Positions 11,052 to 34,619 of a stretch of DNA of 40,280 nucleotides are shown here, piece after piece. The position numbers and the translations under genes were made by a program. The notes below the pieces were generated by a model. That model searched no databases and was not told where the DNA came from. It worked only from the letters and a program-made list of their open reading frames with translations. The stretch comes from Myxococcota bacterium (lineage in GTDB: Bacteria; Myxococcota_A; UBA9160; JAFDET01), in the NCBI GenBank assembly GCA_028278065.1, contig JANQFA010000038.1, positions 66,497 through 106,776 on the forward strand, in the 5' to 3' direction. The stretch's first letter is position 1. Each line of letters opens with the position of its first letter.

Positions 11052-11681
11052 ATGAAGCTCGCTCGTTCGCTGATGCTGACGGCCACCATGTTGTTCGCCG
11101 CGGGGACCGCCTCCGCGGTGCCGGTCACGTTCACCTTCGAGAGCGCGGAGATCTTCGACGCGGGCTTCACGGTGCAACAGACCTTCACTCCGAGCCTCCC
11201 GCTGGTCGGTTCGGGCGACGTCGACGAAGCCGCCGGAACCTACGACCTCACCCTGCCGGACTTCTCGATCACGCTCGACATCGTGATCTCGCCCAACGAC
11301 GGGGACGATGCGCGCCTCGACACCACGGGCTGGGGGCAGGTGGGCACCTTCGCCGCGGGCGTCGGCGGCGACCTGACCTCGAGCAGCGCCACTGGCAACA
11401 CGACGTGCACCGTTCTCGGTGGAATCGGTGGCCTGGTCTGCGCCGACTTCCCGGCGCCCGTCGATCCCTGGCCGCCGACCGGGGACTCGGGCCCCACCCT
11501 CGGAGCCCCGAGCGCCACGATCGACATCCTCACCAACACCATCGTGGTGATCAGCGACTACGACGCGAATGGTGGTCAGGTCCGCAGCATCTACAGCTAC
11601 GAGGTGCCCGAGCCGGGCACGATCCTGCTCGTGGGGGCGGGCCTCTGCGGCCTGCTGCTCGCCGGGCGGCGGCGCGCGTAG
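11052..11681 (+). CDS. PEP-CTERM sorted exported protein
   Basis: A 209-residue secreted protein. An N-terminal signal peptide (MKLARSLMLTATMLFAAGTASA) is followed by a beta-rich Asp/Thr/Gly region with one Cys pair. The C-terminal sorting signal VPEPGTILLVGAG, a hydrophobic helix and GRRRA complete it. PEP-CTERM proteins are processed by an exosortase and usually end up in the envelope or exopolysaccharide; no exosortase lies in this window. It is monocistronic: 244 bp of upstream DNA and a strong hairpin immediately after. The conserved signals are unambiguous; the role of the body is unknown. Confidence 0.9.
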   Translation: MKLARSLMLTATMLFAAGTASAVPVTFTFESAEIFDAGFTVQQTFTPSLPLVGSGDVDEAAGTYDLTLPDFSITLDIVISPNDGDDARLDTTGWGQVGTFAAGVGGDLTSSSATGNTTCTVLGGIGGLVCADFPAPVDPWPPTGDSGPTLGAPSATIDILTNTIVVISDYDANGGQVRSIYSYEVPEPGTILLVGAGLCGLLLAGRRRA

Positions 11682-17466: not shown

Positions 17467-19032
17467 ATGGGTGATGGCCATGGATGGAGCGAGCCCCTGT
17501 CCACCCACGACTACGACGCCATCGTGATCGGCGCCGGCCTCGGCGGCCTGGCAGCGGGCGGCCTCCTGGCCCACCGGGGGATGAGCACGGCCATCTTCGA
17601 GCAGGCTCCCCGCGTCGGGGGCTGCTGTGGGTCGCTCCGACACGGCGACTACCAGTTCGACGTCGGGGCGACCGTGGTGCTGTTCCTCGACGTGATCGAG
17701 CGGTTCTTCCGGAGCACGGGCCGCGAGATGGCGCGGTACGTCCAGTTCCTTCCGATCGAGCCCCTCTTCGAGGTCGTGGACCAGGAACGGCGGCGCTTCC
17801 AGATCCCCACCTCGCCCCTCGAGACGGGCGAGCTCTTCGCCTCCTTCTCCGAGGAGGACGGAGAAGGTTGGAGGCGATTCGCGGAGGCGGCCGAATCCGG
17901 CATGGCGGCGGCCATGACCCAGATCTTCACGCGCCGCTTCCAGACGCTCTCGGATGCGCGCGAAATCGCGCGCACCTCTCCGTCGATGACGAGCGATCGC
18001 AGCAGCCTGCTCCACAGCTTCGAGAAGACGCTGCGCTCGTACTTCCGCAGCGAATCCATCCTCGGAGCGCTCAGCCTCGCCTCCTACAGCGTGGGACTGC
18101 CTCCGGCCCTGGCCCCGGGCTACGCCGCGTTCCTCAGCTACGCCGAGCATCAGGGCTCCTACTACCCGAAGGGGGGAATGAAGGCGCTGCCCGAGGGAAT
18201 GGCGACCGCGTTCGCGGAGGACGGCGGCGAGATCCACCTCGGTGCCCGCGTGTCCGGCATCCTCACCGAGGAGCGCAGGGTCGTCGGGGTGCGGCTCGGC
18301 GACGGGCGGGAGATCCGCTCCCGGGTCGTCGTCGGGGACATCAACGCCAAGGCGATCTACGGCCAGCTCCTGCCCCGTTCCGAGGTGCCGCTCTGGGCGC
18401 GGCTGGCCCTGAGGAGCCTCCGCCTCTCCCAGTCGTCGTGCATGCTCAAGCTCGGCATCGAGGGCGACGAGGGCTTCGGAGCCCATCACACCCTCTACTC
18501 GGGCGGCCTCGAAGCCCTGAATCGCATCTGGTTCGACGACTACGAGCGGGGTCGCCCCTCCCGAGGTGGCTATCTGCTGGCGTCCATACCGAGCAGGACC
18601 GATCCCTCGCTCGCTCCGCCCGGACACCACGTCGTGCATCTGCACACCCTGGCTCCCTACCAGCTCGCCGATGGCGCGAGCTGGGACGACATCCAGCGAC
18701 GGGAGGCCGACCGCATGCTCGACTTCCTCGAGGCTGACTTCGGCGTCCGGCTGCGGGAGCGGATCCGGTTCGCGCACCTGAGCACCCCGCTCGAGCTCGA
18801 GCGCGAGGTCGGCCTCCACCGCGGCGCCCTGTACGGCCTGGAGAGCGGCCTCCTCTCGACGTCGATGTTCCGGCCGCGCATGCGCTCACCGATCTTCGAC
18901 GGCCTCTATCTCGCGGGCTCGTCCGTCCACCTGGGCGGCGGGATTCCGGTCTGCATCGGATCCGGGATGATCGCCGCGGACCTGGTCTGCGAGGACGCCT
19001 CGCTCGCTCAGTCAGGGTCGTCGGGGCCGTAG
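17467..19032 (+). CDS. CrtI/CrtISO/RetSat-like FAD-dependent oxidoreductase
   Basis: A 521-residue flavoprotein of the phytoene desaturase / carotenoid isomerase / retinol saturase superfamily. The dinucleotide motif VIGAGLGGLAAGG starts at residue 19, followed by EQAPRVGGCC. GSYYPKGGMKALPEGMA near residue 232 lies in the substrate-domain hinge, and the C-terminal FAD block is GLYLAGSSVHLGGGIPVCIG. Reactions in the family are desaturation, isomerisation or saturation of polyenes and other hydrophobic chains. No good ribosome binding site precedes ATG 17467, but no later start keeps the FAD motif intact. Last gene of the operon; its end overlaps the convergent gene at 19008 by 25 bp. Confidence 0.88.
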   Translation: MGDGHGWSEPLSTHDYDAIVIGAGLGGLAAGGLLAHRGMSTAIFEQAPRVGGCCGSLRHGDYQFDVGATVVLFLDVIERFFRSTGREMARYVQFLPIEPLFEVVDQERRRFQIPTSPLETGELFASFSEEDGEGWRRFAEAAESGMAAAMTQIFTRRFQTLSDAREIARTSPSMTSDRSSLLHSFEKTLRSYFRSESILGALSLASYSVGLPPALAPGYAAFLSYAEHQGSYYPKGGMKALPEGMATAFAEDGGEIHLGARVSGILTEERRVVGVRLGDGREIRSRVVVGDINAKAIYGQLLPRSEVPLWARLALRSLRLSQSSCMLKLGIEGDEGFGAHHTLYSGGLEALNRIWFDDYERGRPSRGGYLLASIPSRTDPSLAPPGHHVVHLHTLAPYQLADGASWDDIQRREADRMLDFLEADFGVRLRERIRFAHLSTPLELEREVGLHRGALYGLESGLLSTSMFRPRMRSPIFDGLYLAGSSVHLGGGIPVCIGSGMIAADLVCEDASLAQSGSSGP

Positions 19033-19520: not shown

Positions 19521-20063
19521 CTACTCCACCAGCAGCTCGAGCGAGGAGAGCGGAGGGCTTCCGAAGTAGATGTCCTCGCCCTCCAGGCGCCCGTCGGCGG
19601 CTGCGGGCCACACGGTGAGGATCCGGTTCTCGGACACGTAGCGGGCGTCGGGATCGACCGGGGCCCCGTGCACCTCCGCCACGCCGGAGGCAGCCAGGAC
19701 CGCCCCAGGGACCACGGTCCGCATCACTCCCTCCGTCACCACCGAGTGGCGGTCGACGACGATTCGACGGATGTCGAACTCGAAGCGGTTGCCTCCGCTC
19801 GCGATCATCTCGGTGTAGAAGGCCGCCACGGCTCGTCGCCCCTTCGGTCCCATCTCCGGACCGAGCCCCCACAGGTGGTAGTGCGGATCGTCGACGAGGG
19901 TGTCCATGAGAGGGGCGAGCTCGCCGCGGATCTCCGCGCGCAGATGGTCGCGGACCTGCTCGAGCAGACGCCGCCGGCGCGGGTCGTCTTCGGCGTCGAT
20001 CCGGTCCTCGAGCACCTGCCACGACCGCTCCGGATCGAACTGGGAGCGTCCCCCCGGCGTCAT
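19521..20063 (-). CDS. NTF2-fold protein with helical N-terminal extension
   Basis: A 180-residue protein. About 50 charged residues (ERSWQVLEDRIDAEDDPRRRRLLEQVRDHL) precede an NTF2-like core: LMDTLVDDPHYHLWG, KGRRAVAAFYTEMIASG and the strand DRHSVVTEGVMRTVVPG. The core could form the usual cone-shaped ligand pocket. The extension is not standard and may pack as a helical hairpin. The ATG overlaps the luciferase-like stop by 4 bp (ATGA), so the two are translationally coupled. Function unknown. Confidence 0.8.
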   Translation of the reverse strand: MTPGGRSQFDPERSWQVLEDRIDAEDDPRRRRLLEQVRDHLRAEIRGELAPLMDTLVDDPHYHLWGLGPEMGPKGRRAVAAFYTEMIASGGNRFEFDIRRIVVDRHSVVTEGVMRTVVPGAVLAASGVAEVHGAPVDPDARYVSENRILTVWPAAADGRLEGEDIYFGSPPLSSLELLVE

Positions 20064-21094
20064 GGCAGCAGCTTCGCGATCTCGGTCTGGTAGTGCATCA
20101 TCTTGATCGGGTCGATTCCGTAGGCGGGCGGAATCACCACCATCGAGTCGGCGACCGTCCAGGCCTGCTCGATGCGCTCGCGGATCGAGCTCGGGCTCCC
20201 GCACAGCACGAACGCGCGAACCATCTCGTCGGGGACGAGATCCGGACGGGTGAACACGTCGCGGTCGCGGCCGATCTCCTGGGCCCGACGCGCCTCGTCG
20301 CGGAAGCCGTGGGCAGCGAAGAACGACTCGTACTGCTCGAAGGAGGCGTAGAACCCGACGGTCGTGCGGGCGTCCTCGATGGCCTCGGCCTCATCCTCGT
20401 TCGGAGCGCACCAGAACCACAGATTGAGCTCGACATCCTCGCGCCTGCGCCCGCTGCGCTCGAGCCCCACCGCGATCTCCGGCTGGACCCGGTGGATCGC
20501 CCAGTCCAGCGACCACATCGGGTGTCCCATGATCCCGTCGCCGACTTCCGCCGCCAGGCGCACGGCGGGGCCTCGCAGCGCTGCGACCCAGATCGGGATG
20601 CTCTCGCGAACGGGAGGCTGCTGCGGCTGCAGCGCCGAGAAGTCGCCCTGGTAGTAGTGACCTTCGAACGGCGCGAGGCCTTCTTCGCTGTGGGCGCCGC
20701 GGACGATGTGCCGAACGGCGGCGATCGTCTCGCGGAGGTGCGCGAGAGGTCGGTGCGGAGGTGCACCGAAGAGCCCGCAGGTCCAGGCCTGGACGCTGGC
20801 ACCGAGGCCCAGGATGAAGCGGCCCTGGCTGATCCGGTCCAGGTCGATCGCCGCCATCGCCGTCTCGAACGGGCTGCGTGCCGCAGCGATCGCGACGCCG
20901 CTGGCGATCTTCAGGCGCTCGGTGTGGGAGGCAGCCACGGCGAGCGTCGACCACGGAGGCCCGATGACCTGGGGCGCGAAGAGGCCCTCGAGCCCCTCCG
21001 ACTCGGCTCTCCGGGCGAACGTCGCGATGGCCGGCGCGGGCAGCGGCGCGACGATTCCCCAGTAGCGACGCTCGCGTCCTTGCCCGGAAGTCAC
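20060..21094 (-). CDS. Luciferase-like (LLM class) flavin/F420-dependent monooxygenase
   Basis: A 344-residue TIM-barrel oxidoreductase. RYWGIVAPLP opens the barrel, FARRAESEGLEGLFAPQ is the first helix-strand, then SGVAIAAARSPFETAMAAIDLDRISQGRFILGLGAS (the most conserved LLM segment), IPIWVAALRGPAVRLAAEVGDG and a C-terminal CGSPSSIRERI. These enzymes use reduced flavin or F420 on long-chain, terpenoid or keto substrates. The GTG at 21094 is chosen because GAGGAAGAGG lies just before it. The upstream ATG at 21142 has no ribosome site and lies 8 bp from the operator. First gene of a leftward operon. Confidence 0.9.
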   Translation of the reverse strand: MTSGQGRERRYWGIVAPLPAPAIATFARRAESEGLEGLFAPQVIGPPWSTLAVAASHTERLKIASGVAIAAARSPFETAMAAIDLDRISQGRFILGLGASVQAWTCGLFGAPPHRPLAHLRETIAAVRHIVRGAHSEEGLAPFEGHYYQGDFSALQPQQPPVRESIPIWVAALRGPAVRLAAEVGDGIMGHPMWSLDWAIHRVQPEIAVGLERSGRRREDVELNLWFWCAPNEDEAEAIEDARTTVGFYASFEQYESFFAAHGFRDEARRAQEIGRDRDVFTRPDLVPDEMVRAFVLCGSPSSIRERIEQAWTVADSMVVIPPAYGIDPIKMMHYQTEIAKLLP

Positions 21095-21149: not shown

Positions 21150-21170
21150 TTTGTTGACATTGTCAACAAA
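21150..21170. promoter_or_regulatory. Perfect palindromic operator between divergent promoters
   Basis: Ten-base arms TTTGTTGACA and TGTCAACAAA flank one central base. A TTGACA -35-like hexamer is present on each strand inside the palindrome, so one bound repressor could block both the luciferase-like operon (left) and the decarboxylase-like/carotenoid-oxygenase operon (right). Degenerate copies occur at 32633, 32665 and 33493 around the TetR gene. Confidence 0.75.
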
Positions 21171-21213: not shown

Positions 21214-21978
21214 ATGCAGACACTCGCCGACCTCCGCAGCCGCACTCCCCACGACGACATGCTCGCCGGGCGCAACTCGTCGTACCTCGTGGCGGGTCAC
21301 TTCCCCACCCGCGCGCTCCAGGAGCTCCTGCCGCCGGCGATGTCGATCCCTTCCGACGAGGCGATGGCCGCGAGCTACCCGACGGCGCGGCCCCTCCCCG
21401 GCCTGCATCCCTTCATGCTCCTGTTCAGCAACTGCCGGAACGTCCATGACGTGATGACCGGGATCGAGCTGCGCCCCTATCGGGAGCTCATGTTCTTCTT
21501 CCCCGTCCTCTACACCCACGCAGGGGAGGAGCGACTCTGCTCCTTCGTCCCGGTGCTCTACCTCGAGTACCTGATCGGCGTGATCGGCGGGCTCTACCTG
21601 GGCCTGCGCAAGGAGTTCCATCCGGGCATGAGAGACGTCGAGACGGAGGCGTCGAAGTCCTTCGCGATCGAGGGCATCCTCGACGCGAGCTTCGAGAAGT
21701 GCCCGGCCGGGACCCTCAAGGAGCTCGATCCCTTCTTCACCCGGACCTTCGCGAACCCGACTGCGACGGTCTCCTACTTCAATCGGACCTGGTTCTACAC
21801 GACGAAGGTGCATCCGACCAAGGTGCTCGAGACGTCGGCCGAGTTCGAATGGCGGTACAAGGGTTCGGTCATCGAGAGCAACCAGGCGACCTTCGCCAAC
21901 TACGCCGAGTACGCCTTCACGACCTCCCAGGCGATGCGCTACGAGGCGTACTTCCATCCGAGCTACCCGGTGGAGTAG
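21214..21978 (+). CDS. Acetoacetate-decarboxylase-like superfamily protein
   Basis: A 254-residue protein starting MQTLADLRSRTPHDD. SSYLVAGHFPTRALQELLPPAM is the N-terminal strand-helix of the acetoacetate decarboxylase-like barrel, and IELRPYRELMFFFPVLY is the central barrel strand pair. YLGLRKEFHP holds a lysine near the position of the Schiff-base lysine, but I cannot align it with certainty. It may be a decarboxylase/aldolase-type enzyme or a binding protein. ATG 21214 is the first start clear of the operator at 21150. It heads a rightward operon with an SRPBCC protein (10 bp away) and a carotenoid oxygenase. Confidence 0.68.
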   Translation: MQTLADLRSRTPHDDMLAGRNSSYLVAGHFPTRALQELLPPAMSIPSDEAMAASYPTARPLPGLHPFMLLFSNCRNVHDVMTGIELRPYRELMFFFPVLYTHAGEERLCSFVPVLYLEYLIGVIGGLYLGLRKEFHPGMRDVETEASKSFAIEGILDASFEKCPAGTLKELDPFFTRTFANPTATVSYFNRTWFYTTKVHPTKVLETSAEFEWRYKGSVIESNQATFANYAEYAFTTSQAMRYEAYFHPSYPVE

Positions 21979-21988
21979 GCGCGATCCC

Positions 21989-22411
21989 ATGGGTCATCAC
22001 CAGGTCGCTGGCGAGATCGCGATGTCCGCGGATGCGCTGTGGCGTCTGCTCTGCGACTTCGGCGAGGTGAGCTGGCTCCCGGGCAACCCGGACTACGAGT
22101 GCGAAGGCGAGGGGATCGGGATGATCCGCACGATTCGCACCCCGCCCCTTCCCACGGTCCGCGAGCGTCTCGAGTCCATCGACGAGGAGAACCGTACCGT
22201 CCACTACCGGGTCCTCGACGGCAACCCGATGCCGGTGGACGACTACCAGGCCTCCATGCAGGTCGTGGACCTGGGCGACGGCCGGAGCCGTCTCGTCTGG
22301 AGCAGCACCTGGGAGCCGAAGGGCGTCAGCGAGGAGGAGGCGCGGAAGGCCGTGGACGATCTCTACACCGGCGTCCTCGCTGCGATCCAGAGGAACCTCG
22401 CCGGTCGTTGA
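21989..22411 (+). CDS. SRPBCC (START-like) ligand-binding/cyclase protein
   Basis: A 140-residue helix-grip protein of the polyketide cyclase/dehydrase type. IAMSADALWRLLCDFGEVSWLPG is the N-terminal strand-helix, then GIGMIRTIRTPPLPTVRERLESID, VHYRVLDGNPMPVDDY and the long C-terminal helix EEEARKAVDDLYTGVLAAIQRNL. Such proteins bind hydrophobic ligands and can act as dehydratases, cyclases or carriers. Co-operonic with a carotenoid oxygenase, which suggests an apocarotenoid or similar ligand; inference only. Confidence 0.88.
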   Translation: MGHHQVAGEIAMSADALWRLLCDFGEVSWLPGNPDYECEGEGIGMIRTIRTPPLPTVRERLESIDEENRTVHYRVLDGNPMPVDDYQASMQVVDLGDGRSRLVWSSTWEPKGVSEEEARKAVDDLYTGVLAAIQRNLAGR

Positions 22412-22436
22412 GAACGCACGCAGCGGAGCCGCGCGC

Positions 22437-23870
22437 ATGAGCCCGTCCGAAGCCAGGAAGAGCCGACTCCATCCGGCACGGATGGGAACCAAGCTCTCGC
22501 ACTTCTGGTCCGACCTGACCCGCGAGCACGGCTACGAGCCCCTGAAGCTCGAAGGCGACGTCCCCGGCGATCTCGCCGGGACGCTCTACCGCACCGGCCC
22601 CGCCCTCACCCAGCGGTTCGGGCGACCCTACAGCCACGTCTTCGAGGGCGACGGTGCCATCTGCGCCGTCCGCCTGGCGGCGGGCAGGGCCGAGGGCGCC
22701 CACCGTCTGCTGCGGAGCGATGGGTTCGTGGCCGAGGAGCGTGCCGGGCGGCCGCTCTACCAGACCGCCGTCTCGTGGCCCCGCCAGGTGGCCAACGGTC
22801 TTCTCGGGCGCTTCAAGAACACCGGCAACACGAACGTCATGGAATGGCACGGGAACCTGTACGCCTTGATGGAGAACGCCCGTCCGATCGCGTTCGATCG
22901 CGAGCTCCAGACGATCGGCGAGTCGAGCCTGGGCGGGGTGATCCGCGGCGCGTTCTCGGCCCATCCGCACCCGGTCGCCACGCGGCGCACCACCTACAAC
23001 GTCGGACTCCGCTACGGCCGCAAGACCCACGTGGCGATCTACTCCCTGCCGTGGGAAGGACCCGCGCGCTGCCTCGGCGAGCTACCCCTCGACCACCCGG
23101 TGATGCTGCACGACTTCATGGCCACCGAGCAGCACGTCGTGATGCTCGTCTCCCCTCTCAGGCTCGTGATCCACCGGGCGATCCTCGCCATCGGCGACTT
23201 CCCCGAGCTCTTCCGATGGACGCCGAGCGCCGGCACCGAGGTGATCGTCGTCCCGATCGACGCCCCCGAGCGCGTGCGGCGCTTTCGGACCGACGCCTTC
23301 TTCCAGATCCACTTCAGCGGCGGGTACGAGGAACCGGACGCGACGGTCGTGGACATCATGAAGTACGCGGACTCGAGCGCCCTGGACGTCAACGTCGCCG
23401 ACGTCGACCAGCCGCCCCAGGCGGGCGAGGTCACCCGGATCCGGATTCCCCACGGAAGCGAACGGGTCGAGCACGAGCGCCTCTGCGACACCACCCTGGA
23501 GTTCGGGCAGCACGACCAGCGCGTGGCGGGCAGCGCGTACCGGCACCTCTTCGGGCTGACCGTCGACGCGAGCCACCGTTTCGCACTCGCCCACGTGGAC
23601 CTGGAGAGCGGCGTGGAGGACCTCTTCTGGTTCCCCGACGGCGAGTTCAACTCCGAGGCGATCTTCGCGCCCAGGGGACCGGAGGCACCCGAAGGAGACG
23701 GCTACCTGCTCACGATCGTCTACCGCTCGAGCAGCCGGACGAGTCACCTCGCGGTGTTCGACGCCCGGCACGTGTCGGATGGCCCGATCGCGCGCGCGCA
23801 CTTCGACCACCATATCCCGTCGGGGTTCCACGGAACCTGGGTCGCTGCAGCCCGTGCCGGCGCGGCATAG
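22437..23870 (+). CDS. Carotenoid cleavage oxygenase (RPE65/CCD family)
   Basis: A 477-residue non-heme iron oxygenase. DVPGDLAGTLYRTGPAL near residue 41 is the family's opening, and HVFEGDGAICAVRL the first blade signature. The four iron-binding histidines fall at about H176 (AHPHPV), H225 (MLHDF), H292 (QIHFSGGYE) and H465 (GFHGTW). The enzymes cleave a conjugated double bond in carotenoids, apocarotenoids, stilbenes or lignin dimers, giving aldehydes. The motif at H292 replaces the common H-x-x-N-A-Y-E with H-F-S-G-G-Y-E, so substrate preference may be atypical. Third gene of the rightward operon; GGAG precedes the ATG. Confidence 0.9.
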   Translation: MSPSEARKSRLHPARMGTKLSHFWSDLTREHGYEPLKLEGDVPGDLAGTLYRTGPALTQRFGRPYSHVFEGDGAICAVRLAAGRAEGAHRLLRSDGFVAEERAGRPLYQTAVSWPRQVANGLLGRFKNTGNTNVMEWHGNLYALMENARPIAFDRELQTIGESSLGGVIRGAFSAHPHPVATRRTTYNVGLRYGRKTHVAIYSLPWEGPARCLGELPLDHPVMLHDFMATEQHVVMLVSPLRLVIHRAILAIGDFPELFRWTPSAGTEVIVVPIDAPERVRRFRTDAFFQIHFSGGYEEPDATVVDIMKYADSSALDVNVADVDQPPQAGEVTRIRIPHGSERVEHERLCDTTLEFGQHDQRVAGSAYRHLFGLTVDASHRFALAHVDLESGVEDLFWFPDGEFNSEAIFAPRGPEAPEGDGYLLTIVYRSSSRTSHLAVFDARHVSDGPIARAHFDHHIPSGFHGTWVAAARAGAA

Positions 23871-23884
23871 CCCCCGTGGGCGGT

Positions 23885-24262
23885 TCAGCGGTTGGGACGC
23901 ATCTCAGCGGGATTCCAGAAGGCACGCATGCTGGTGATCCGGCCCGCGTCGTCGAAGGCCATGACGTCGATCACGTCGAGATAGAGCTTGTTGTCGTTCA
24001 TCGTCAGCTCCGCGAGCATCGGAAAGGCGGCCTCGTTGCCGGCCACCCGGACCGGGCCCGTCAGCTCCACCTGGAGGCTCGGCACCGTACCCGCATAGAA
24101 GGTGCGGAGCTCGTCCTTTCCGCTCTGGATCTTGCCCCCGACCGGATCCTCGGCCGTACCGCCGTCTGCGTACAGGTCCACGATCCCGTCGACGTCGTTG
24201 CTGCACATCATCCGGACATACGATTCGATCACGCTTCGCACTTCATCGGGCGTCGGCATCAT
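23885..24262 (-). CDS. ksi: Steroid delta-isomerase (3-oxo-delta5-steroid isomerase, KSI)
   Basis: A 125-residue protein matching the ketosteroid isomerases of Comamonas and Pseudomonas along its whole length: NDVDGIVDLYADGGTAEDPVG, GKDELRTFYA, VELTGPVRVAGNEAAF, and the ending GRITSMRAFW. The three catalytic residues are kept: Tyr15 (Tyr14 of the Comamonas enzyme), Asp39 (the general base, Asp38) and Asp99 (same number). The reaction moves the C5-C6 double bond of a 3-oxo steroid to C4-C5. Start at ATG 24262 (a second ATG follows directly), with GGAGA upstream. Divergent from the P450 gene; stop is 15 bp from the convergent carotenoid oxygenase. Confidence 0.88.
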   Translation of the reverse strand: MMPTPDEVRSVIESYVRMMCSNDVDGIVDLYADGGTAEDPVGGKIQSGKDELRTFYAGTVPSLQVELTGPVRVAGNEAAFPMLAELTMNDNKLYLDVIDVMAFDDAGRITSMRAFWNPAEMRPNR

Positions 24263-24381
24263 GGGTCTCCATTGACGGCTTCTGGTCGCACGGATCATAG
24301 ACCGTCCCGATCGAAACGGGAACTGCGGGCGCGCGACCGAGCCCGACACAGGTGTTAGAATTCCCTCGAGACGGAGGTTCC
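24263..24381. promoter_or_regulatory. Divergent promoter region of isomerase and P450
   Basis: A 119-bp gap. TAGAAT at 24356-24361 matches a -10 hexamer in 5 of 6 positions for the P450 gene, with GGAGG ending 5 bp before the ATG at 24382. No matching -35 box or inverted repeat is visible. Confidence 0.4.
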
Positions 24382-25602
24382 ATGGCGCTGGCCGATGTGA
24401 GTGCGCTCTCCCCCGACATCGTCGAGGAGCCGTATGAGCTCTACGCGATGCTCCTCGAGGAGTCTCCGGTGCACTGGGACGCGCACCTCGAGGCCTATCT
24501 GGTCACGCGCTACGACGACCTGCTCACCGTCCTGCGCGACCCCCAGACCTTCTCCTCCGCGATCGGCGCGATGACCCGGCCGCCGCCCGAAGCCGCCATC
24601 GCGATCCTCGCGACCGGCCTGCCCCCGGCCAACACCCTCATCACCGCCGACCCGCCCATGCACGGCCGCTATCGATCGCTCGTCGCCAAGGCCTTCACGC
24701 CCCGACGGGTGGAGAAGATCCGCGACCACGTGAGGGTCGTCGCCCACGAGCTGATCGACGAGTTCGAGGCGGACCGCGAGGTCGAGCTGATCGGGCGGTT
24801 CGCCGCGCCGCTCCCTCTCATCATCATCGCCGAGCAGCTCGGTGTCCCGCGCTCTCGCATCGGCGACTTCAAGAAGTGGTCCGATGCCTTCCTGGACCTG
24901 ATCGGCGGCCTGGCTTCCGAGGAGCGGAGCGTCGAATGCGCGCACCAGATCCTCGAATGCCAGGAGTACTTCACCACCCGGATCGAGGAGTACCGCTCGG
25001 ATCCTCGCGACGACATACTCGGGGTCCTGATCCGTGCCAAGCTCGACGGCGAGCGGCCCCTCGACGATGCCGAGATGGCCAGCATCCTCCAGCAGTTCAT
25101 GCTCGCCGGAAACGAGACCAGCACGGCGGCCATCGCAGCGACCCAGCGCTTCCTGATCGAGCAGCCGGACGTGCTGGCCGAGGTCCGCGAGGACCGCAGC
25201 CTGATCCCTGGCGTCGTCGAGGAAGGGGTGCGACTCGAGTCTCCGGTACAGAACATCTTCCGCGTCTCGACCCGGGACACCGAGATCGGCGGGGTTCCGA
25301 TCCCCGCCTTCTCGCGGATCGGCATCATGTTCGGCGCGGCGAACCGGGATCCCCGGGTATTCCCCGAACCCAGCCGCATGAATCCCCGCCGCCCGAATGT
25401 GCGCGAGCACCTCGCGTTCGGTCACGGCGCCCACTACTGCATCGGAGCCGGACTCGCGCGTCTGGAGGGCTGCGTGGCGCTCGAGGCCCTGCTCGACCGC
25501 TTCCGTGAGGTCCGCTTCGCTCCAGGCCGCAACGACTTCAAGCACAACTCGATGTTCATCGCGCGCGGCCTGAGGGAGCTCCACCTGGAGTACCGGGTCT
25601 AG
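24382..25602 (+). CDS. Cytochrome P450
   Basis: A 406-residue soluble bacterial P450. The I-helix AGNETSTAA with the acid-Thr pair is around residues 241-249; ExxR is in EEGVRLES, and the heme-binding loop is FGHGAHYCIGAG with the cysteine ligand at about residue 353. Also DPPMHGRYRSLVAKAFTPRR (C-helix). It needs a ferredoxin and reductase, which are not in this window. Neighbouring ketosteroid isomerase suggests a steroid or terpenoid hydroxylation, but bacterial P450 substrates cannot be read from sequence. The ATG at 24382 follows GGAGG; an ATG-less upstream stretch is excluded. Confidence 0.95.
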   Translation: MALADVSALSPDIVEEPYELYAMLLEESPVHWDAHLEAYLVTRYDDLLTVLRDPQTFSSAIGAMTRPPPEAAIAILATGLPPANTLITADPPMHGRYRSLVAKAFTPRRVEKIRDHVRVVAHELIDEFEADREVELIGRFAAPLPLIIIAEQLGVPRSRIGDFKKWSDAFLDLIGGLASEERSVECAHQILECQEYFTTRIEEYRSDPRDDILGVLIRAKLDGERPLDDAEMASILQQFMLAGNETSTAAIAATQRFLIEQPDVLAEVREDRSLIPGVVEEGVRLESPVQNIFRVSTRDTEIGGVPIPAFSRIGIMFGAANRDPRVFPEPSRMNPRRPNVREHLAFGHGAHYCIGAGLARLEGCVALEALLDRFREVRFAPGRNDFKHNSMFIARGLRELHLEYRV

Positions 25603-26696: not shown

Positions 26697-27224
26697 ATGG
26701 CCGACCTCGAGATCCCGAACTTCCCGATGCTCCTGATGGAGCCCCTGGTCGCGGTCCCCGAGCGCTCGCGGGTGGGCTTCATCGCGAGGCTCGAGCGCTC
26801 CGCCGCCGACCGCTACCGGGTCTGGGCCGAGGAATCGGACGAGCTGCGCGAGGGACTGATCGCCTGCGCCGACCGCGAAGACGAGATCGCCGACCGCGCC
26901 GAGGCCCTCGTCCCGGTCCACCCCGCAGACGAGGAGATCGTCGGTAGATCGCTCGCCGAGGCACGCAGGCTCTACGCGAGCGCCTTCGAGGGCCACAGCC
27001 TGCTGGACCGCATCACCCTGCAGGCCCACGCCGAGCGGCAGGGTTCCCTCGCCTGGCTCGGCTTCGCGCGCCAGGCCGAAGACGAGGCCGCGAAGCGGGA
27101 GTTCCTGGCCCTGGCGGATCTCGAGGTGGCGAGCGCCGAGCACATCGACGCGACCCTCGGCATCCGGTCGAGCACATCGACGCGACCTTCCGCATCCGGT
27201 CGACCAGCGAGATCGGACGGCTAG
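26697..27224 (+). CDS. Ferritin-like helical protein with frameshifted C-terminus
   Basis: A 175-residue, almost fully helical protein starting MADLEIPNFPMLLMEPL after AAGGAG. Regularly spaced Glu and His (DREDEIADRAEAL, QAHAERQGSLAWLGFARQAEDEAAKREFLALADLEVASAEHID) fit a ferritin-like four-helix bundle, although the pattern is not a clean di-iron ExxH set. The last 17 residues (STSTRPSASGRPARSDG) are read out of frame after a 32-bp tandem duplication, so the original C-terminus has been replaced. The stop overlaps the convergent PEP-CTERM gene by 4 bp. Family call is tentative. Confidence 0.6.
   Translation: MADLEIPNFPMLLMEPLVAVPERSRVGFIARLERSAADRYRVWAEESDELREGLIACADREDEIADRAEALVPVHPADEEIVGRSLAEARRLYASAFEGHSLLDRITLQAHAERQGSLAWLGFARQAEDEAAKREFLALADLEVASAEHIDATLGIRSSTSTRPSASGRPARSDG
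27138..27201 (+). repeat. 32-bp tandem duplication (2 copies) inside a gene
   Basis: Units 27138-27169 and 27170-27201 differ at 2 of 32 positions (both start GAGCACATCGACGCGACC). The length is not a multiple of three, so the second unit is read in a different frame from the first. Confidence 0.85.
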
Positions 27225-27985
27225 CGGCGTGTCTGCCGGACCAGTACGGCCAGACCCACGGCGAGGAGGGCCCAGGTGCCCGGCTCGGGCAGGAAGACCA
27301 GATCCAGGGTCGCGAAGGTGGGGACCCTCACGAAGTACTCCTCCCCGGCGTCGATGATCATCACCGAGGCGGACACCAGGCGGATCTCCCCGATCCCGTT
27401 CTCGTCGCGGTTGTCGAAGCCGGTCCGGGAGACCGACGAGCCCGGCACGCTGTCCACGACCACGTCGTTCGCCGTGACGGTGCCCGTCGACCACTCCATG
27501 CCGATGGTCTGGGTGCTGAGAATCTGATCGAGCGGTGGCGGGACGAATCCGACCTGCACACCGCCCAGGCCGATCGGGTTGAGGGGAATGCTGATGAGGA
27601 TCTCGTCCGCCACGTCGTAGAAGTCGAAGGCGCCGTCCAGGGACATCAGGCCACCCACGCTTCCGTCCGGGCGAGGCGCGAAGCTGCCGGAAGTGGTCGC
27701 GTAGGTGGTGAAGGCGCTCTCGACGACGGCGGGGATCTCGGGCGGCCTCTCGGAGCCGAAGTCGCCGCCGAAGTCGGTCACGCCGAACACGCCGGCCGGA
27801 AGCTCGAACACGCCGGTCGTCGGATCGTAGGTCGCGTCCCCGGCGCCGTCCGTCGGGATCACGAGGAGGCCGTCGAAGATGTCGATGGTCAGACTGCCCT
27901 CGAACGCGAGCGCGGTCGCCTGGTGCGCCGGCACCAGGATCGCGAGGGCCAGCCACAAGTTCAGTGCGAGGGCTCGATTCCGCAT
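27221..27985 (-). CDS. PEP-CTERM sorted exported protein
   Basis: A 254-residue exported protein: signal peptide (LALNLWLALAILVPAHQATA), a beta-rich body with many Asp/Gly/Thr (SLTIDIFDGLLVIPTDGAGD), and a C-terminal LPEPGTWALLAVGLAVLVRQTRR sorting tag. The ATG at 27985 follows GGAGA; an upstream ATG at 28003 would add six residues. Together with the gene at 11052 it shows the genome uses an exosortase system. Body without recognisable domain. Monocistronic by layout. Confidence 0.9.
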   Translation of the reverse strand: MRNRALALNLWLALAILVPAHQATALAFEGSLTIDIFDGLLVIPTDGAGDATYDPTTGVFELPAGVFGVTDFGGDFGSERPPEIPAVVESAFTTYATTSGSFAPRPDGSVGGLMSLDGAFDFYDVADEILISIPLNPIGLGGVQVGFVPPPLDQILSTQTIGMEWSTGTVTANDVVVDSVPGSSVSRTGFDNRDENGIGEIRLVSASVMIIDAGEEYFVRVPTFATLDLVFLPEPGTWALLAVGLAVLVRQTRR

Positions 27986-28086
27986 GTCGTCTCCGCTTAG
28001 CATCGCTCCACAGGGAAGTGGGAACGAGACAGCCCCTGTGTCACTTTCTCGCGCGATTCGAGCAGAAACCGGGGAACCGCCGGGAT

Positions 28087-32632: not shown

Positions 32633-32653
32633 TGAGTTGACAATGTCAACAAA
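32633..32653. promoter_or_regulatory. TetR operator candidate, site O1
   Basis: Right arm TGTCAACAAA is identical to the palindrome at 21150; left arm TGAGTTGACA keeps 8 of 10. The core GTTGACA-N-TGTCAAC is a perfect palindrome. It lies 52 bp before the TetR start codon. Confidence 0.7.
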
Positions 32654-32664
32654 AGCGCCGGGAT

Positions 32665-32685
32665 TTTGTTGACACCGGCAACCTG
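32665..32685. promoter_or_regulatory. TetR operator candidate, site O2 (one strong arm)
   Basis: Left arm TTTGTTGACA is a perfect match; the right arm CGGCAACCTG keeps 5 of 10. Its centre is 32 bp (three helical turns) from O1 and it ends 19 bp before the TetR start codon, so binding would block transcription or initiation. Confidence 0.6.
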
Positions 32686-32704
32686 CTCTCGGAGACTGCC
32701 CCGC

Positions 32705-33430
32705 ATGGCCGGCCGCCCCCGCAGCAAGAACTCGGACTCGAAGAGACGCACGGTACGCAAGCCCCGCAGCGTACAGAAGCGCGCATCCAGGGAGTCGACG
32801 CCGCGCAGCGTGCGCCGACCGCGCGACGGCGGACTCCGCCGCGAGCTGATCGATGCGGCGCTGGCGCTGGTCCAGGTGTCCGGCACGCGCGGCCTCAGCC
32901 TCCGTGAAGTGGCGCGCCGCGCCGGAGTGTCGCACTCGGCGCCCTACCGGCACTTCGAGAACAAGGAGGCTCTCGTCGCCGCCGTTGCCGAGCAGGGCTT
33001 CCGAACCCTGCAGCAGCGCGTGATGGACGGGCTCGCCAGCGCGCCCGCCGACTCGGTGCGCCGCTTCGAGGCCGTCGGGGTCGCCTACGTGGAGTTCGCC
33101 GCACGACATCCTGCCCACTTCCGCGTGATGTTCGGGCCGGACGTCCCCGATGCCTCCGAGCATCCCTCCCTGCGAGCCACGCTGGATGCGACCGACAGCC
33201 TCTTCCGGGCCGCCGCCGTGCAGGCGCTGGAGCGGCTCGGGCCGCGGGCACGAGGCGTCGACCCCGCGCACTTCACCCTGCTGGCCTGGTCGCTCGTACA
33301 CGGCCTCGCGTCGCTGATCGTCGATGGAAGGGTCGGCGAGATCGAGAAGTCGACCGACGACCCCGAAGAGATCGTGTATCTGGTCACGGGAGCGATCCAG
33401 CAGATCGCCCGAGGCATCCAGCGCTCCTGA
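32705..33430 (+). CDS. TetR-family transcriptional regulator with WHG-like C-domain
   Basis: A 241-residue repressor. The helix-turn-helix is at residues 66-85 (LSLREVARRAGVSHSAPYRHF), followed by the ligand domain with VAYVEFAARHPAHFRVMFG, typical of the TetR_C/WHG group. An extra N-terminal region of about 40 residues is strongly basic (SKRRTVRKPRSVQKRASRES) and could contact DNA beyond the operator. The ATG at 32705 is chosen over an upstream ATG at 32666, which lies inside operator O2. Two operator copies in its promoter indicate autoregulation; further copies precede 33612 and lie between 21094 and 21214. Confidence 0.93.
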   Translation: MAGRPRSKNSDSKRRTVRKPRSVQKRASRESTPRSVRRPRDGGLRRELIDAALALVQVSGTRGLSLREVARRAGVSHSAPYRHFENKEALVAAVAEQGFRTLQQRVMDGLASAPADSVRRFEAVGVAYVEFAARHPAHFRVMFGPDVPDASEHPSLRATLDATDSLFRAAAVQALERLGPRARGVDPAHFTLLAWSLVHGLASLIVDGRVGEIEKSTDDPEEIVYLVTGAIQQIARGIQRS

Positions 33431-33492
33431 GGCCGCTCCGCGTCGCCGGGTCTTCCGGGAGCGGCCCGTCGCCGAGGCGCTCCTTCGAGAGC

Positions 33493-33513
33493 TTTGTGTA
33501 CGCTGTCAACCTG
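33493..33513. promoter_or_regulatory. TetR operator candidate upstream of the reductase gene
   Basis: Arms TTTGTGTACG and TGTCAACCTG match the 21150 arms at 7 of 10 positions each. A further half-site CGTCAACAAC begins at 33535, about 31 bp on, similar to the 32-bp spacing in front of the TetR gene. Confidence 0.5.
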
Positions 33514-33611
33514 CGGGCGCGGCGGCGTAGGCAGCGTCAACAACCCACCCGTCTCGCGCGGCTGACGCCTCCCGGGGCGGGAGGGCGATACCTGCGAGGA
33601 GAGGAGGGGCG

Positions 33612-34619
33612 ATGACGAAGCGGGTGAACCGGAAGTGCACACTGGTCCGCCGTCCCCAGGGCCGCCCCCGAAGCGCGGACTTCGCGATCGTCGAGGCGCC
33701 GGTCGAAGCGCCTCCCGAGGGCTGCGCGCTGATCGCCGTCGAGCATCTCTCGATCGACCCCTTCATCCGGGCCGCGCTCAATCCGGGCAGCGCCCATCCG
33801 CCCGTCGCGCTCGGGGAGGTGCTCCCGGCCCTCGGCGTCGGCCGGGTGGTGGAGAGCAACTGCGACGGCCTGCGCGTCGGCGACCCGGTGTGCGGCACCT
33901 TCATGGCCCAGACCTGCGCGACCCTGCCGCCGATGGCGGTCGAGGTGGTGGACGACTCCCGGGTTCCCCTGCGCACCTACCTGGGGGCGCTGGGCAGCAC
34001 CGCCGGGCTGACTGCCTACTTCGGCATCCTGGAGGTGGGCGGCGTATCCGAGGGCGATGTCGTGCTCATGTCCGCCGCCGCAGGAGCCGTAGGCTCGATC
34101 GCCGGCCAGATCGCCAAGCTCGCAGGAGCACGGGTCATCGGCATCGCGGGCGGGCCGGAGAAGGCCCGGTTCGTGTGCGACGAGCTCGGCTTCGATGCGT
34201 GCATCGACTACAAGCACGAGGACGTTGCGGCCCGCATCGCGGAGCTCGCGCCCGCAGGCGTCGACGTCTTCTTCGACAACGTAGGGGGCCCGATCCTCGA
34301 CGCCGCACTCGACAACATCGCGAACGAGGGGCGGGTGGTCCTCTGCGGCGCGATGACCCAGTACGACCACATGGAACGGGTCGAGGGGCCGAGCCTGTAC
34401 CTGCGTCTCGCCGAGCGTCACGCCCGCATGGAGGGATTCACGGTTCTCCACTTCCATGCACGCTACGAAGAGGGCCGCAGGCAGCTCGCCGAGTGGCTCA
34501 CGAACGGTGCGCTCGCGGTACGGGAGCACGTCGACGAAGGCATCGAGAACCTTCCCCGGGCGCTGCTGCGCCTCTTCGACGGCTCGCACATCGGGAAGCT
34601 GCTGCTGAAGGTGGGCTGA
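33612..34619 (+). CDS. NADP-dependent enone/alkenal reductase (CurA/PTGR-type MDR)
   Basis: A 335-residue zinc-free medium-chain reductase. EHLSIDPFIRAAL near residue 44 is the CurA/prostaglandin-reductase signature; VGRVVESNCDGLRVGDPV follows, and the cofactor motif is SAAAGAVGSIAGQIAKLAGARVIGIAGG. DVFFDNVGGPILDAAL and FTVLHFHARYEEG are also typical. It reduces the double bond of alpha,beta-unsaturated aldehydes or ketones. GAGGAGGGG precedes the ATG. It lies 181 bp after the TetR gene with its own operator-like site, so it is likely a target of that regulator. Confidence 0.92.
   Translation: MTKRVNRKCTLVRRPQGRPRSADFAIVEAPVEAPPEGCALIAVEHLSIDPFIRAALNPGSAHPPVALGEVLPALGVGRVVESNCDGLRVGDPVCGTFMAQTCATLPPMAVEVVDDSRVPLRTYLGALGSTAGLTAYFGILEVGGVSEGDVVLMSAAAGAVGSIAGQIAKLAGARVIGIAGGPEKARFVCDELGFDACIDYKHEDVAARIAELAPAGVDVFFDNVGGPILDAALDNIANEGRVVLCGAMTQYDHMERVEGPSLYLRLAERHARMEGFTVLHFHARYEEGRRQLAEWLTNGALAVREHVDEGIENLPRALLRLFDGSHIGKLLLKVG

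Follow-up and report, generated by a model that had tools for sequence, protein, structure and literature searches.

Does a TetR-type regulator control a gene cluster 11 kb away from its own gene? This question is raised by a 40,280-bp stretch of DNA from a Myxococcota bacterium (hereafter the window), where a palindrome lying between two divergent genes recurs near a tetR gene. An initial sequence-only reading proposed that the repeats define one multi-operon regulon, whose inducer would relate to the carotenoid-oxygenase pathway. The relevant features are as follows.

20060-21094, minus strand: LLM-class (luciferase-like, possibly F420-dependent) oxidoreductase (PF00296, 2e-55); predicted regulon member
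21150-21170, no strand assigned: operator O1, in the gap between the divergent LLM and ADC-like genes
21214-21978, plus strand: ADC-like protein; predicted core regulon member
21989-22411, plus strand: SRPBCC/polyketide-cyclase-like gene (PF10604, 1e-19), 10 bp past the ADC-like gene; presumed same operon
22437-23870, plus strand: RPE65/carotenoid-oxygenase family dioxygenase (PF03055, 5e-103); presumed same operon
32633-32653 (core 32636-32650): operator O2, exact core, before tetR
32665-32685 (core 32668-32682): operator O3, 2 mismatches, 32 bp from O2
32705-33430, plus strand: tetR, repressor with TetR_N and TetR_C_33 domains, 241 aa
33493-33513 (core 33496-33510): weak operator O4, 3 mismatches
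33524-33544 (core 33527-33541): weak operator O5, 3 mismatches, 31 bp from O4
33612-34619, plus strand: CurA/PTGR-like medium-chain reductase (PF16884/PF00107)

Operator sites and their statistical support

Read directly from the window, O1 is TTTGTTGACATTGTCAACAAA, a perfect 21-bp palindrome with one centre base. The initial reading had described two degenerate copies with 32-bp spacing before tetR. Both are present, but the term understates O2, whose core (GTTGACAATGTCAAC) shows no mismatch to the 15-bp core. The further copy it had placed before the reductase gene, with a second half-site at 31 bp, corresponds to O4 and O5. Its statement that the motif is absent elsewhere in the window also holds, as O1-O5 are the sole matches with up to 3 mismatches in these 40 kb. 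O1 and O2 additionally agree at a few bases past the palindrome (GTTGACAATGTCAACAAAA-xGCCGG), which is compatible with, though no proof of, a common origin.

Copies with up to 2 mismatches to the core are confined genome-wide to O1, O2 and O3, all in the window. The 5.35-Mb genome is a draft (90.5% complete), and further sites may be missing from it. A reversed-pattern control gave 0 genome-wide matches at this threshold. Simulated sequence with the dinucleotide make-up of the window yielded no site at 0-1 mismatches, 0.017 sites at 2 and 0.3 at 3, and no pair of sites 15-40 bp apart arose in 60 runs. The 3-mismatch class comprises 52 places genome-wide; it is mostly background and was rejected as a source of regulon members. 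Given these 52 places, neither O4 nor O5 is significant singly, and the two were judged as a pair and by a scoring matrix.

This matrix was built from 31 sites of other genomes and zero window sites; since the foreign sites were chosen by likeness to the window core, it is independent in data and not in seed. Scanned over the window, it ranked O1 (34.0), O2 (29.9), O3 (21.2) and O4 (18.9) first to fourth and O5 (9.3) sixth. Simulated sequence totalling 5 Mb contained no site that scored as high as any of O1-O4; the O5 score occurs by chance 3.8 times per Mb.

The regulator and its promoter

The tetR product exceeds the curated cut-offs of PF00440 (50 bits, cut-off 24) and PF13305 (58.6 bits, cut-off 26.8), which assigns it to the TetR_C_33 subgroup of the TetR family; a palindromic operator is also kept at orthologous genes. 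Its predicted structure is all-helical (pLDDT 85) and matches solved TetR structures, with an unstructured, basic N-terminal tail of ~40 aa. The best match both in sequence (4e-20) and in fold is 3on2, an uncharacterised regulator from Rhodococcus RHA1 whose domains are arranged alike overall. The window TetR contains no cysteine, which rules out thiol-based electrophile sensing.

In the window, 36 nt separate the TTGACA of O3 from the tetR ATG. At least 14 of 19 loci, the window plus 13 or more others, have TTGACA 34-36 nt ahead of an in-frame tetR start codon. This spacing, a matter of sequence geometry in which the start codon is set against the predicted transcription start, suggests that tetR genes with this operator are probably leaderless and self-repressed. 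The -10 boxes of these promoters are weak.

A comparable arrangement has been described for the AcuR-AcuI-DddL system of Rhodobacter sphaeroides, in which a TetR-family autorepressor is encoded by a leaderless gene with an inverted repeat over its promoter (PMC3017554). The window tetR resembles acuR in that an operator overlies its promoter and its start codon coincides with the predicted start of transcription, although the leaderless start is predicted here and was proven for acuR (PMC3017554). The AcuR half-sites TAGAC/GTCTA resemble GTAGAC variants of the window operator family, but in the AcuR operator, TAATAGAC-n6-GTCTATTA, GAC and GTC are separated by 6 bp, whereas window-type sites all have 3 bp there and none fits that pattern. 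Both systems include a medium-chain reductase, which acts on an alpha,beta-unsaturated compound in the case of AcuI. The AcuR reductase is co-transcribed with its regulator; in contrast, the window reductase gene follows a 182-bp gap that contains its own weak sites, and the enzyme is CurA/PTGR-like, not an AcuI-type acryloyl-CoA reductase. The targets differ as well, comprising a DMSP lyase for AcuR and the LLM, ADC-like and carotenoid-oxygenase genes here.

Gene order in relatives and a proposed relocation of tetR

A protein search identified the closest two TetR orthologues in genomes G013 (57% identity) and G085 (55%), and a separate DNA search found the palindrome directly upstream of tetR in both. 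In each genome the exact palindrome is single-copy and sits between tetR and the ADC-like gene, in the arrangement ADC-like gene <- palindrome -> tetR - LLM - thiolase - acyl-CoA ligase (genes assigned by Pfam). Identity to the window protein is 71-73% for the ADC-like orthologues (G013, G085 and G052; 72-73% in the first two) and 80-82% for the LLM orthologues, whose genes immediately follow tetR in G013 and G085. The ADC-like copy in G052 is of no use as a natural control, its contig ending 53 bp upstream. The three TetRs of the window, G013 and G085 form one clade (support 100/99). These loci support the proposal that the cluster 11 kb away belongs to the TetR regulon. A TetR scan of the named genomes returned distant relatives only, with the palindrome in four upstream regions (L034, L035, L036, L038). 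Two TetR relatives that adjoin molybdopterin oxidoreductase genes (L156 and L158, in G006 and G034) have tandem sites of variant sequence (GTGGAC/GTAGAT) at a spacing of 32-33 bp.

The O1-flanking genes, which lie 11 kb from tetR in the window, thus flank the tetR/operator unit in relatives, suggesting that the window is a rearranged form in which the operator was left at its old targets. The G013 and G085 tetR promoters have a GATGCT -10-like box, 17 nt from TTGACA, which is retained in the LLM-side flank of O1. The simplest history would be that tetR moved 11 kb out with a copy of the operator and that the LLM gene is now transcribed from the former tetR promoter. The operon thiolase seems to have been lost in the window lineage, as the best copy in the window genome (G000) is on another contig and 78% identical, versus 89-92% in G013 and G052.

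For TetR itself and divergently encoded TetR-family regulators, a palindromic operator between repressor and target is common to both promoters (PMC3511530). The G013 and G085 loci share this divergent layout, whereas in the window the regulator has left the divergent pair; the classical target is an efflux pump, and the window targets are enzymes.

Genes predicted to be controlled from O1

The LLM start codon, a GTG at 21094, was picked by its ribosome-binding site. The LLM protein scores best against F420-type families, below their cut-offs, and an F420 ligase is encoded in the window genome. Three of four ADC-like members give weak matches to the ADC family PF06314 (best E 5.5e-4), which weakly supports an ADC assignment for the protein encoded at 21214. 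Its predicted structure (pLDDT 42) is unusable, and a profile search of solved structures gave no match.

The ADC-like, SRPBCC and carotenoid-oxygenase genes are separated by gaps of 10 and 25 bp, and the oxygenase is presumably reached from O1 by read-through, in the window genome only. NCBIfam models for carotenoid and stilbene cleavage score alike on this oxygenase, both far below cut-off. The SRPBCC, carotenoid-oxygenase, SnoaL and P450 genes (window 21989-25602) form a conserved module with 76-86% identity to G013:C160 (L234), on a contig other than that of the G013 tetR/ADC-like/LLM unit. We therefore rejected this cluster as the ancestral target. The G013 orthologue of the oxygenase (86%) has no palindrome and G085 has no carotenoid-oxygenase gene at E<=1e-40, which indicates that the conserved regulon core consists of the LLM and ADC-like genes and that the oxygenase, with its presumed read-through, is a local addition. 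Also near the carotenoid oxygenase, and without a palindrome of its own, is a CrtI-type phytoene-desaturase-family protein (17467-19032; 281 bits with TIGR02734, whose cut-off of 238 it exceeds). Elsewhere in the window, PEP-CTERM sorting signals terminate two proteins (27221-28003, minus strand; 11052-11681, plus strand).

Proposed mechanism

Starting from what the sequence itself provides (sites, uniqueness, conservation, gene order and spacing), we infer binding, repression, a leaderless start and a ligand as follows. A TetR dimer would bind GTTGACAnTGTCAAC and repress its own gene, with O2 and O3, three helical turns apart, covering the tetR promoter. The TTGACA of the operator would double as the -35 box, and transcription of tetR probably begins at the start codon. 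Bound to O1, TetR would repress two divergent transcripts, one encoding the LLM protein and the other the ADC-like, SRPBCC and carotenoid-oxygenase proteins; through the weak O4/O5 pair it probably also represses the CurA-like reductase gene. The expected releasing ligand is a small metabolite, either hydrophobic or of acyl type. Ancestrally, tetR would have lain between O1 and the LLM gene; its shift in the window lineage, together with an operator copy, could explain why the now unlinked cluster still carries an operator. We assign this model as a whole a probability of about 0.85.

Probable control of the CurA-like reductase

A less secure target is the reductase. The protein reaches 273 bits with the NCBIfam CurA model (cut-off 440) and 30 bits with the AcuI model. 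The locus does not qualify as a CurR/CurA pair (NF058643/NF058644), given that TetR scores 19 of the required 300 bits and the reductase falls short as above. O4 and O5 are upstream of the reductase start (33612), inside the 182-bp gap beside tetR. It could be that the regulon comprises only tetR and the O1 genes (LLM and the ADC-like operon), with O4 and O5 as non-functional remnants or chance matches, a reading we consider improbable but worth weighing. Both sites belong to the 3-mismatch class with its 52 genomic places, O5 has a score expected by chance every few hundred kb (3.8 per Mb), and the CurA homologues in other genomes all have no palindrome upstream. On the other hand, the O4 score is unattained in simulated sequence, the O4-O5 spacing of 31 bp resembles the 32 bp of O2-O3, and the probability of both sites falling in this gap is ~1e-6, estimated from genome-wide density. 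The proposal that the reductase is a TetR target is thus moderately supported: the two sites are jointly non-random, yet they are weak and homologues elsewhere have none. We consider TetR control of the reductase gene probable and lineage-specific.

The closest CurA homologue (60%), in G071, shares a 5-kb cluster with an RPE65-family gene, a weak hint at a function common to both. This region (L236, G071:C208, 5903-11171) also contains a beta-lactamase-fold hydrolase and an SDR, a set resembling that of the window.

The operator family and the nature of the inducer

We searched 379 genomes of the phylum, by sequence only, for the palindrome followed by 20-22 nt and RTG. The pattern gave 25 matches compared with 5 for a reversed control, 9 of them in a single odd genome (G352) and 16 elsewhere. 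Ten of these 16 coincide exactly with the start codon of a TetR homologue, six being seeds known beforehand and four new (G008, G029, G033, G182). Because the six seeds make a binomial test on all 16 matches non-independent, the valid count is 4 new TetRs among 10 non-seed matches. Eight of the ten TetRs, among them every new one, have an adjacent RPE65-family gene; the remaining two are orthologues of the window TetR. The same operator type occurs in a sister clade of TetRs (support 100/100), which has an RPE65/carotenoid-oxygenase neighbour in 8/8 members and sites that are mostly in tandem, 21 bp (two turns) apart. This operator type and carotenoid oxygenases thus recur together. A separate locus, L167 (G146:C444, 8560-8760), has a divergent TetR and carotenoid oxygenase (40% to that of the window) with another palindrome, TGTAAACGACGTTTACA, in the gap.

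These associations bear on the suggestion that the inducer derives from the carotenoid-oxygenase pathway, which is only indirectly supported. If the inducer were a product of the oxygenase, the regulon would be an apocarotenoid- or enal-processing unit, as the neighbours of the sister clade and of the four new TetRs and the clustering in G071 might suggest. AcuR, de-repressed by an alpha,beta-unsaturated product that its partner reductase removes (PMC3017554), offers a precedent for an enone inducer, not evidence for one. However, gene order indicates that the orthologues of the window TetR control an LLM/thiolase/acyl-CoA-ligase operon along with an ADC-like gene, and their operators have no carotenoid oxygenase nearby; G085 lacks the oxygenase at the threshold above, and the window enzyme is ambiguous between carotenoid and stilbene models. 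We hold an oxygenase-derived inducer to be doubtful. A broader scenario, which we offer tentatively, is that a phylum-wide leaderless TetR family (operator GTWGACAnTGTCWAC) might be a dedicated sensor of RPE65-family (carotenoid- or stilbene-cleaving) oxygenase products. The window TetR would then be a branch that kept the operator and was rewired to the LLM/ADC-like acyl pathway, the carotenoid oxygenase being re-acquired in this lineage when its cluster became joined to the former operator.

The 6.7-Mb genome of G352, of the same phylum, contains 18 scattered exact copies of TGTTGACASTGTCAACA (for example, L270-L284, position 1501), compared with 0 for the reversed control. They are mostly within long reading frames and resemble a dispersed chromosomal motif or repeat and not operators at promoters. 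That the window palindrome is bound by another regulator, a paralogue or a global factor, with the adjacency of tetR incidental, is very improbable: these copies of a near-identical palindrome in a distant genome indicate that another protein can use such a sequence, and the window genome does encode a second TetR (43% identity), but that paralogue has no palindrome upstream, and the best genome palindromes of G000, G013, G085, G016, G028, G017 and G037 are directly at their own TetR of this type. Overall, the data strongly support the palindrome as the operator of the window TetR.

Implications

The evidence points to a genuine gene switch of conventional type, with a mechanism ordinary for TetR proteins and an operator family that is apparently undescribed. 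In the parts of the open-access literature seen, GTTGACA/TGTCAAC or GTAGACA/TGTCTAC operators were not found linked to any TetR. We found no TetR linked to carotenoid oxygenases in the open-access literature, nor any described regulator for bacterial carotenoid- or stilbene-cleaving enzymes. This analysis adds an operator rule, the finding that the operator recurs next to carotenoid oxygenases, and a proposed relocation of tetR. A repeat spotted by eye has become a testable regulator-operator pair, and the rule (palindrome, with TTGACA 34-36 nt before the repressor start codon) predicts targets from sequence in poorly studied, mostly uncultured bacteria. The locus also provides an example of a regulator leaving its ancestral operon while the operator stays. 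Should the sister clade prove to sense the cleavage products of these oxygenases, it would supply a regulator, and with it a biosensor, for bacterial enzymes that cleave carotenoids or stilbenes.
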